Shown piece after piece: positions 41,222 through 45,076 of a stretch of 64,000 nucleotides of DNA; the first letter of the stretch is position 1; each line of letters begins with the position of its first letter. Source of the stretch: Burkholderiaceae bacterium. Its GTDB lineage: Bacteria; Pseudomonadota; Gammaproteobacteria; Burkholderiales; Burkholderiaceae_E. Under the pieces are notes generated by a model. That model was not told the DNA's origin. It ran no database searches and was given only the letters and a program-made list of their open reading frames with translations. The translations under genes were made by a program, and so were the position numbers. The stretch is taken from NCBI GenBank assembly GCA_023954045.1, contig JAMLIR010000009.1:82531-146530 (forward strand), given 5' to 3'.

Positions 41222-42787
<1,566 letters not shown>

Positions 42788-42839
42788 GGCAAACGCGAGT
42801 TGTAACGAGATATCCGCAACGTGGACGGGCACCGAAGCG

Positions 42840-43985
42840 ATGCGAAACATCTTCCTGCTGTACATGCCGCCGAACAACCTGGAGGCGATGACGCACTACC
42901 AGGACACGATTCACAGCAAGGTACCGTTCGAGCGGATCGCGCCCCACGTATCGCGCGACGTCGCGTCTCGACTCCGGAACATTTTCGGCGAGCGTCCGAT
43001 CGCGGTTTGGGGGTCGCGCGACGGCAGGTCGAACCGCAGCAAGTTCGAAAAGATGGCCGAGGGCGACGACCTGCTGATCGTCGAGGACGAAACGATCCGG
43101 CTCATGGGGAAAATCGCGTTGAAGACCGTCAACGCCGATCTGTCCCGCGAGCTCTGGCGCAACCTGAATCCCGCGACTCCGGACGGATGGAACCTGATCT
43201 ACTTCATCGCCAATCCGGTCGAGATCGACGTTCCGTTCAGGGAATTCTGCGCGCTGTTCGGCTACGAGCCGAGCTATCGACTGCGTGGATTCACGACCGT
43301 GGGCGGCGACAAACTCGGGGAGTTCTACGACCGGTACGACGACCTCTACTCGATCCTGATGCGGATCCGGGCCGGGGAGCCGATCGTTCGGAAGGCTGCG
43401 CCGTCCGAGATCGAGAAGCTGCCCGAACGGCTCGTCGAGATTCAGGCAGAGGACGTCGCCCAGGTGCTGCGCAGCGATCTGGTCTCCGATCACGTGAAGA
43501 TGCAGTGGAAGATCGCGAGCCTGGGCCTGAAGGCCGGCGAGAAGATATGGGTGCCTCCTGCCGACCAGGGCAAGTTGCGGGCCGCCTTTGATTTCAGCGC
43601 GTTCGAACCCGAGTTCGCAACCGGAATCGACCTCCCGAAGAACTACTTCGAGAATATCGACGTGGTCTGGAAGGACGAGTTCCGGATCGACGCCGCATTC
43701 GAAGTGGAGAACTCGACTGCGATCTACTCAGGGCTGCTGCGGTTCGCCGACCTGAGCATCGTGGCGCCGAACACCCTCTATCCGATGTTCATCGTCGCGC
43801 CGCGGGAGCGACGGAATCGCGTGCGCGAGCAGTTGCTGCGGCCTGTCTTCCGGCAGCTGGACCTTCGCGACAAGGTGCGCTTTCTGCCCTACGAGACGAT
43901 CGATGAGATCGATCGGTTCTTCTCGACGGCATCGAGCGGGCTCTCGGTCGATCTGCTGCGCGGGAAGGCAGAGACGCTCGTCTAA
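42840..43985 (+). CDS. candidate modification-dependent restriction protein: PUA-like reader plus PD-(D/E)XK-like nuclease
   Basis: A 381-residue protein with two parts. Residues about 35-170 resemble an EVE/PUA-type fold (IAVWGSRDGRSNRSKFEKMA, GDDLLIVED, GKIALKT, WNLIYFI, FCALFGY), a family that reads modified bases in restriction enzymes. Residues about 215-350 match a nuclease-like family: KMQWKIASLGLKAGEKIWVP, IDVVWK, FEVENSTAIYSGLLR (287-301) and FIVAPRERR (317-325). Asp274 with Glu288-x-Glu290 could form a PD-(D/E)XK-type site. Function as a Type IV-like defence protein is inference. DNA here is visibly less G+C-rich than neighbours, and a toxin-antitoxin pair follows. Confidence 0.6.
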   Translation: MRNIFLLYMPPNNLEAMTHYQDTIHSKVPFERIAPHVSRDVASRLRNIFGERPIAVWGSRDGRSNRSKFEKMAEGDDLLIVEDETIRLMGKIALKTVNADLSRELWRNLNPATPDGWNLIYFIANPVEIDVPFREFCALFGYEPSYRLRGFTTVGGDKLGEFYDRYDDLYSILMRIRAGEPIVRKAAPSEIEKLPERLVEIQAEDVAQVLRSDLVSDHVKMQWKIASLGLKAGEKIWVPPADQGKLRAAFDFSAFEPEFATGIDLPKNYFENIDVVWKDEFRIDAAFEVENSTAIYSGLLRFADLSIVAPNTLYPMFIVAPRERRNRVREQLLRPVFRQLDLRDKVRFLPYETIDEIDRFFSTASSGLSVDLLRGKAETLV

Positions 43986-44014
43986 CGCCAATCGCCATTG
44001 GGCGAGGCGCAGGC

Positions 44015-44042
44015 TTGACATGCCCATATTGGGCATTAACAT
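44015..44042 (+). promoter_or_regulatory. promoter of the nucleotidyltransferase/HEPN pair
   Basis: A perfect -35 TTGACA (44015-44020), a 16-base spacer and a -10 TAACAT (44037-44042). The expected transcription start, 7-8 bases downstream, falls on the A of ATG 44050, predicting a leaderless mRNA. Confidence 0.65.
44020..44036. promoter_or_regulatory. operator 1 (ATGCCCATATTGGGCAT) in the promoter spacer
   Basis: A perfect 17-bp inverted repeat, arms ATGCCCA and TGGGCAT around TAT, filling the space between the -35 and -10. It shares the pattern ATRCCC-N4-TGGGYAT with operator 2, whose centre is 21 bp away. Confidence 0.7.
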
Positions 44043-44058
44043 ACCCGATATGGGTATG
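44040..44058. promoter_or_regulatory. operator 2 (CATACCC-N5-GGGTATG) over the start codon
   Basis: A perfect inverted repeat with 7-bp arms overlapping the -10, the predicted transcription start and the start codon. Operators 1 and 2 lie on the same DNA face, suggesting cooperative autorepression by the encoded HTH protein. Confidence 0.7.
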
Positions 44059-44694
44059 AAGAAGGCCCTCGCCGCCCAGCCGCCCCCGACCAGCCTGGCG
44101 GACGCGCTGTTTTCCGGCACCCGCCAGCGCGTTCTGCGCCTGTTGTTCGGCCAGCCCGAGCGCAGCTATTACGCGACGGAGTTGATCGCGCTCGCTGCGT
44201 CGGGGTCGGGCGCCGTCCAGCGCGAGCTCGCCAGTCTGGCGGAGAGCGGCCTGGTGACGGTGCGCGCCGTCGGCAATCGCAAGCACTACCAGGCCAACCC
44301 CGAGTCCCCCATCTACGCCGAGCTCTGCGGAATCGTTCGCAAGACCTTCGGCCTCGCCGAGCCTCTGCGCGAAGCGCTCGCACCGCTGGCCTCGAGGATC
44401 CGTGCCGCCTTCGTCTACGGATCCGTCGCGAAGGGCGCCGATACGGCGGCCAGCGACATAGACCTGATGGTCGTCAGCGATACGGTCAGCTATGCGGACA
44501 CCTACGCGGCGCTGGAAGATGTCAGCGCGGTGCTCGGTCGCCAGGTGAATCCGACGATCCTCACGACGAAAGATCTCGCAGCCGCCTTCGAGAAGGAGGA
44601 TGCGTTCACCGTGCGCGTGTGGTCACAGCCGAAGGTGTGGGTGATCGGGAGCGATGATGACGTCGGCGCTCGACAACCTGAGCGGCCCGGGTAA
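44050..44694 (+). CDS. winged-HTH minimal nucleotidyltransferase (MNT-type antitoxin candidate)
   Basis: About 214 residues. A winged helix-turn-helix (about 18-82; SGTRQRVLRLLFGQ, YYATELIALAASGSGAVQRE, VGNRKHYQANP) is fused to a minimal nucleotidyltransferase: GSVAKG (124-129) and SDIDL with Asp136 and Asp138, the GS-X-DxD pattern. In MNT/HEPN systems this enzyme AMPylates and silences its HEPN partner. The HTH probably binds the two operators over its own promoter. No Shine-Dalgarno precedes ATG 44050 or 44056; the promoter position supports leaderless translation from 44050. It overlaps the next gene by 41 bases. Confidence 0.82.
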   Translation: MGMKKALAAQPPPTSLADALFSGTRQRVLRLLFGQPERSYYATELIALAASGSGAVQRELASLAESGLVTVRAVGNRKHYQANPESPIYAELCGIVRKTFGLAEPLREALAPLASRIRAAFVYGSVAKGADTAASDIDLMVVSDTVSYADTYAALEDVSAVLGRQVNPTILTTKDLAAAFEKEDAFTVRVWSQPKVWVIGSDDDVGARQPERPG

Positions 44695-45076
44695 GCCGTT
44701 GAAGCCCGAGCCCCCGGACGCCGCGGAGTTCGCGGGGCTTCGCCGATCGGCGTCCGCCCGGCTGGGCGACGCCACGAATGCCAACCTATCCCTGGAGGGC
44801 CGGTTCGATCTCGCCTACAACGCTGCGCATGCGCTGTGCCTGGCGGCGCTTCGGTGGCACGGCTATCGGTCGGCGAACCGCTACATCGTGTTCCAGCTAC
44901 TGCCGCACACCCTCGGGTTGGGTCCGGAGGTCTGGCGGGTGCTGGCCAAGTGCCACGACATCCGGAACCGCGGGGAGTACCAGGGCGATCTGGAGGTGAC
45001 CGAACGGCTGGTCACGGATTTGATCGACGCCTGTGGCGCGGTGGCACGGAGGCTCGACACGCTCATGGAGCTATGA
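44654..45076 (+). CDS. HEPN-like partner of the MNT protein (toxin candidate)
   Basis: A 140-residue helical protein. SLEGRFDLAYNAAHALCLAA, then RYIVFQLLPHTLGLGPEVWR and CHDIRNRGEYQGD (101-113), match helices of HEPN-like proteins encoded beside MNT nucleotidyltransferases. The classical HEPN RNase motif R-x4-6-H is not seen; the corresponding place reads RNRGEY, so ribonuclease activity is doubtful, or the site differs. GGGAGCG lies just before tandem ATG codons at 44654 and 44657. Pairing by a 41-base overlap with the MNT gene indicates a two-gene module, probably toxin-antitoxin. Confidence 0.65.
   Translation: MMTSALDNLSGPGKPLKPEPPDAAEFAGLRRSASARLGDATNANLSLEGRFDLAYNAAHALCLAALRWHGYRSANRYIVFQLLPHTLGLGPEVWRVLAKCHDIRNRGEYQGDLEVTERLVTDLIDACGAVARRLDTLMEL

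Follow-up and report, generated by a model that had tools for sequence, protein, structure and literature searches.

Fusions of EVE, DCD and YTH-like domains to PD(D/E)XK nucleases are treated as putative type IV restriction enzymes in the relevant sections of Bell et al. 2020 (PMC7641849), and a passage of PMC11037411 names YTH-NTPase and YTH-HNH fusions among the topics for later study. No characterized YTH-nuclease restriction fusion besides McrBC appeared in the titles and abstract openings searched, a survey that left subscription literature mostly outside its scope. Here we describe P0001, a protein of a Burkholderiaceae bacterium encoded in a stretch of 64,000 nucleotides that we call the window (GenBank assembly GCA_023954045.1, contig JAMLIR010000009.1, positions 82,531 to 146,530). 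P0001 consists of an N-terminal YTH-like reader domain and a C-terminal PD-(D/E)XK-like nuclease domain. We consider it probable, at roughly three chances in four, that P0001 is a restriction endonuclease of the Type IV-like, modification-dependent kind made of one chain, in which the YTH-like half binds a modified base, the likeliest being N6-methyladenine (6mA), and the nuclease half cuts.

The closest match of the P0001 reader, both by structure and by profile, is TgMcrB, the McrB protein of T. gammatolerans. In the fold search TgMcrB scored above the rows of EVE proteins, including VcaM4I, which stood at lower Z, and the reader is related in both fold and sequence to the TgMcrB-type YTH-like domain, even though the nearest solved reader is just 19% identical to it in structural alignment. 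Three aromatic residues are conserved in the reader alignment, W57 and W106 in 20 of 21 rows each and W117 in 18 of 21; W57 may be the counterpart of a YTH cage tryptophan. The original prediction had likened this half to PUA/EVE-type domains. Membership of the PUA superfamily is borne out by structure and profile, whereas the front half of P0001 is a YTH-like reader of the TgMcrB family rather than an EVE domain. EVE was dropped as the primary label, given the ranking of TgMcrB above the EVE rows and an empty Pfam search: neither the EVE profile (PF01878) nor any other family was listed for P0001 at E <= 10, in a search whose HMMER filters discard most weak matches. One relative, P0010, matched the EVE profile only at E 0.18.

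The two halves of P0001 match separate things, since residues 7-179 match phrog_14240 of PHROGs, a family without assigned function (E 3.7e-13), and PADLOC REase_II covers residues 213-357 (E 2.1e-9). The putative metal ligands D274 and E288-x-E290 lie in or beside predicted strands 275-279 and 282-289. This is where a PD-(D/E)XK enzyme carries its acidic catalytic residues, here in a variant form with a glutamate where the family motif has lysine; the same replacement occurs in BamHI. All three acidic residues are invariant, and the numbering originally given for them is correct. A structure search with the isolated C-terminal domain (VIA-align) placed DNA endonucleases in its best rows, while rows that are unrelated or lack a name begin at rank 7; absence of a family from that list is no evidence against it. 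The nuclease domain of R.BspD6I/N.BspD6I (2p14, 2ewf), a sequence-specific Type IIS heterodimer, shares 6-8% identity with that of P0001, the likeness lying in the fold. A C-terminal stretch of Hna (9yhn; given as 680-842, in a chain of 821 residues) was also likened to P0001, but the listing for the isolated domain, of 50 rows, does not contain Hna. A sequence search of the PDB with the nuclease half returned a single match, at E 2.8, which we take as chance. P0001 combines a reader of the PUA superfamily with a nuclease domain, the evidence for the latter being moderate.

In an RNA-directed effector, the YTH-like domain would instead read m6A (N6-methyladenosine) in RNA, and the nuclease would attack RNA, or nucleic acid as part of a suicidal response. 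We regard such an effector as highly improbable, because the nuclease family has matches to a PADLOC Type II restriction enzyme model, the best structural rows are DNA endonucleases, and the fusion partners of the reader's relatives are HNH, Mrr or McrB-type modules.

The open reading frame (ORF) runs from an ATG to a stop codon at the place and on the strand first claimed for it. In-frame starts also exist upstream, from 42657 on, but are unnecessary, because in three relatives (L003, L005 and L069) the equivalent methionine is the earliest start that follows a stop codon. The frame is not a product of chance, since it was retained in 0 of 2000 first-order Markov samples, its G+C content by codon position is 0.61/0.39/0.86, and four homologs share 59-69% identity with P0001 over the full length. 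The difference in composition noted in the original prediction was also recovered: the ORF has a G+C content of 61.9% vs 71.0% for the window, where no other segment of that length is lower; equally low values were found in only 2 of 1258 overlapping ORF-length segments, both of which overlap the ORF itself. None of the protein-family libraries searched has a name for the reader-nuclease pairing, and NCBIfam listed no family for P0001 at E <= 5. A PDB sequence search with the whole protein gave antibody light chains as the best 60 of 505 phmmer matches (E >= 0.046), and a search with a five-row profile gave no match.

The nuclease half is also found at the end of a second family, of approximately 420 amino acids (L007, L009-L011, L015-L018, L024-L037), whose members are often named type II restriction endonucleases. 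The first half of these proteins carries an 'IKGLGPA..HPT..PFNT' motif and is helix-hairpin-helix glycosylase-like by eye only. BLASTP aligned residues 64-368 of P0001 with this family at 26% identity. The plasmid-borne members were rejected as full-length relatives, as the profile places only the C-terminal half in them, and we take two plasmid records with one place covering 80% to be of the same kind. A further protein of 367 amino acids (L002:907-2010) has the same nuclease half behind a different N-terminal half, EVE- or YTH-like by eye, without a Pfam match.

The frequent database annotation of proteins sharing the C-terminal half as 'type II restriction endonuclease' would suit an orphan, sequence-specific Type II-like enzyme, whose PUA-like domain merely contacts unmodified DNA, as would the type III methylase gene adjoining one full-length relative (L006). 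We nevertheless give this explanation little credence. The P0001 reader belongs to the TgMcrB family; a search for three adenine-methylase families, in which cytosine methylases were not searched for, found no match on the window's contig (C50); and around five other relatives (L003, L005, L038, L069 and L070) no methylase was recognized by eye among the ORFs listed, where no profile search was made.

The original prediction had counted the lack of a nearby methylase in favour of a Type IV-like enzyme. The reading itself is supported, and the observation stands for the three adenine families on the window's contig, but its force is reduced by two findings: the same search across the whole genome (E <= 0.001) found adenine methylases on other contigs (C19, C4 and, below cut-off, C47), and L006 lies beside the type III methylase mentioned above. 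Host adenine methylases count against a reader that accepts 6mA broadly. Possible explanations are misbinning of these methylases (contamination of the assembly is 3.8%), a requirement of the enzyme for a certain sequence context, or a base other than 6mA as its target. The last case corresponds to the same machine with a different mark, the reader recognizing modified cytosine or a hypermodified phage base rather than 6mA. Readers of the PUA superfamily do differ in target, the pocket of the EVE-HNH enzyme VcaM4I taking 5-methylcytosine or 5-hydroxymethylcytosine according to the part of PMC7897488 consulted, and the low identity to the nearest solved reader leaves room for such a shift. This alternative is possible but clearly the less likely one, as TgMcrB, which reads 6mA, is the closest match by structure and by profile and ranks above VcaM4I. 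From this relationship, 6mA would be the likeliest mark read by P0001.

If P0001 is a modification-dependent nuclease of this kind, the YTH-like domain would flip out and bind a modified base, most likely 6mA, in incoming DNA marked at sites that the host itself leaves free of such modifications. A flexible linker would tie the reader to the nuclease with its putative D274/E288-x-E290 metal site, and the tethered nuclease would cut the marked DNA nearby, probably as a dimer, and so could restrict phages. Cleavage would presumably proceed without nucleoside triphosphates, because P0001 has no ATPase domain.

The reader is not confined to P0001. A search with the reader alone matched 18 of 72,556 plasmid records, and we assembled 20 loci in which it lies outside the P0001 fusion (12 of the 18 plasmid records, together with L008 and L039-L041, and L068 and L071-L073). 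By Pfam, its partners are Mrr_cat (L044), NOV_C (L040, L071), HNH_2 (L050, L073 and, below cut-off, L049) and AAA_5 (L068, L008). Five further partners bear the name HNH or restriction endonuclease in their records alone (L043, L045, L046, L047, L048), and three look HNH- or restriction-endonuclease-like by eye (L039, L051, L052), L039 having no HNH match in Pfam. Short reader proteins of 166-230 amino acids occur at L041, L042 and L053, and the reader protein of L072 has no Pfam match. Across bacteria and archaea, the reader thus occurs with four effector types other than that of P0001. These partners are the strongest non-structural argument that the reader selects nucleic acid for cutting.

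In one 504-amino-acid protein (L071:513-2027), the reader is followed by a weak EVE match that lies outside it (E 7.6e-4, below the curated cut-off) and then by NOV_C; judged from these matches, it is possibly an enzyme with two readers. A gene for a MazG-like pyrophosphohydrolase lies directly upstream of the reader nuclease in 6 of the 20 loci. No such link is supported for the P0001 gene itself (0 of 8 full-length loci), and no literature match joined MazG, YTH and restriction. We speculate, with considerable reserve, that the reader is one cassette plugged into many cutters (HNH, Mrr, NOV_C, McrB and the D..ExE nuclease), P0001 being the single-chain, motor-free YTH restriction nuclease among them, and that in some lineages the cassette and an adjacent MazG-like pyrophosphohydrolase form one module that would recognize the mark on DNA and also act on the pool of nucleotides.

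The P0001 gene is rare and scattered. A scan of a genome collection found four full-length relatives, in Piscinibacter caeni, two Gemmatimonadota metagenome-assembled genomes (MAGs) and one Kiritimatiellae MAG. Among the 61 genomes of the window's kin, the full protein occurs in its own genome only, with the C-terminal half alone in one more, and none of 17 other genomes of the genus has a match. Matches were found in 12 of 369 genomes of the class (two full-length, its own included) and in 15 of 398 of the phylum (full length in its own only). With the reader profile, the phylum to which the L006 genome belongs gave 7 matching genomes out of 298, four of them full-length and two of these already found; that of the L005 genome gave 2 out of 288, the one full-length protein being already found. 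Eight full-length members were found in all. No viral contig with a P0001 relative was confirmed; the single match among 50,697 phage records is a McrB-like gene of an Archaeoglobus provirus. Beside its methylase, L006 adjoins a restriction-helicase-like gene, while L003 adjoins a relaxase and a serine recombinase. HNH_2 proteins of approximately 300 amino acids, alike by eye, lie near two of the seven relatives (L038, 2563-3486; L070, 7032-7940).

The setting of the P0001 gene is of a defence type: PADLOC identified both members of the PDC-M05 pair downstream. PDC-M05 is a nucleotidyltransferase/HEPN candidate defence pair, M05B being HEPN by the description in the part of PMC12988326 consulted. 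The upstream anchor gene was found in fifteen other genomes of the genus, and flanks were compared in ten. Genome G004 shows the site empty: its match to the window ends at 42759 and resumes at 45071 after approximately 65 bases, which puts the reader-nuclease and the M05 pair on approximately 2.3 kb missing from G004. Genome G015 retains M05A together with a shortened M05B of 98 amino acids, at 91-95% DNA identity, with P0001 replaced by approximately 5 kb of other sequence that includes a PIN7 protein (L100, G015:C24, 8394-14426). In G002 and G017, other sequence of approximately 3.7 and 2.4 kb, respectively, precedes the point where the match to the window resumes. The remaining six flanks had no downstream match within the stretch compared, owing to a contig end in two. 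This spot is perhaps a swap site for defence genes. Two palindromes lie just ahead of PDC-M05A (44020-44036 and 44040-44058, the second also in G015); from their position before a gene with a helix-turn-helix (HTH) domain, they look like an autoregulatory operator.

Table 1. Coordinates of P0001, its neighbours and MazG-like genes at other reader loci (window positions unless a locus is named)
Feature	Position	Strand	Remarks
Complete gene P0001, YTH-like reader + PD-(D/E)XK-like nuclease, 381 amino acids	42840..43985	+	Translation; full-length homologs
Reader domain, residues 1-180, YTH-like, PUA superfamily	42840..43379	+	Includes conserved W57, W106, W117
W57 codon	43008-43010	+	
Linker, residues 181-212, low confidence	43380..43475	+	Predicted local distance difference test (pLDDT) < 50 at 192-212
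Nuclease domain, residues 213-381	43476..43982	+	PADLOC REase_II match on 213-357
D274 codon, putative metal ligand	43659..43661	+	Invariant in alignment A1; 23/23 rows of alignment A6
E288-V289-E290 codons, ExE of putative active site	43701..43709	+	Both E invariant in A1; 23/23 rows of A6
PDC-M05A, HTH + nucleotidyltransferase	44050..44694	+	PADLOC E 6.6e-83; candidate starts 44020, 44050, 44056
PDC-M05B	44654..45076	+	PADLOC E 1.1e-62; no Pfam match
Block absent from same-genus G004	42760..45070	.	Flanks compared
MazG-like genes	L040:3492-3839, L047:3052-3507, L049:3014-3442, L050:3272-3493, L071:2024-2452, L073:4295-4672		Directly upstream of reader nuclease

Motor-free cutting of 6mA-marked DNA, if P0001 is capable of it, would make the protein a compact restriction enzyme that depends on 6mA, and would test directly whether prokaryotic YTH-like domains other than that of McrB read marks on DNA. 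The spread of the reader with four other effector types also provides a handle for finding defence genes that are unnamed in the Pfam and NCBIfam copies searched.

The general reader-nuclease design is already known, and it is the particular pairing in P0001 that is unnamed. The suggestion that this exact fusion may be undescribed is unsupported as it was put, since the relevant sections of Bell et al. 2020 (PMC7641849) predict YTH-like-PD(D/E)XK fusions. Those YTH-like/DCD-PD(D/E)XK proteins, predicted from sequence and without an activity test in the sections devoted to them, are of the same architecture class as P0001 and may include its nuclease family. VcaM4I (6yex), an EVE-HNH modification-dependent endonuclease, resembles P0001 in placing a PUA-superfamily reader ahead of a nuclease in one small chain. 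In TgMcrB, the reader is joined to a GTP-driven AAA+ motor and the nuclease is a separate protein, McrC, whereas in P0001 the reader is joined directly to the nuclease, with no motor.
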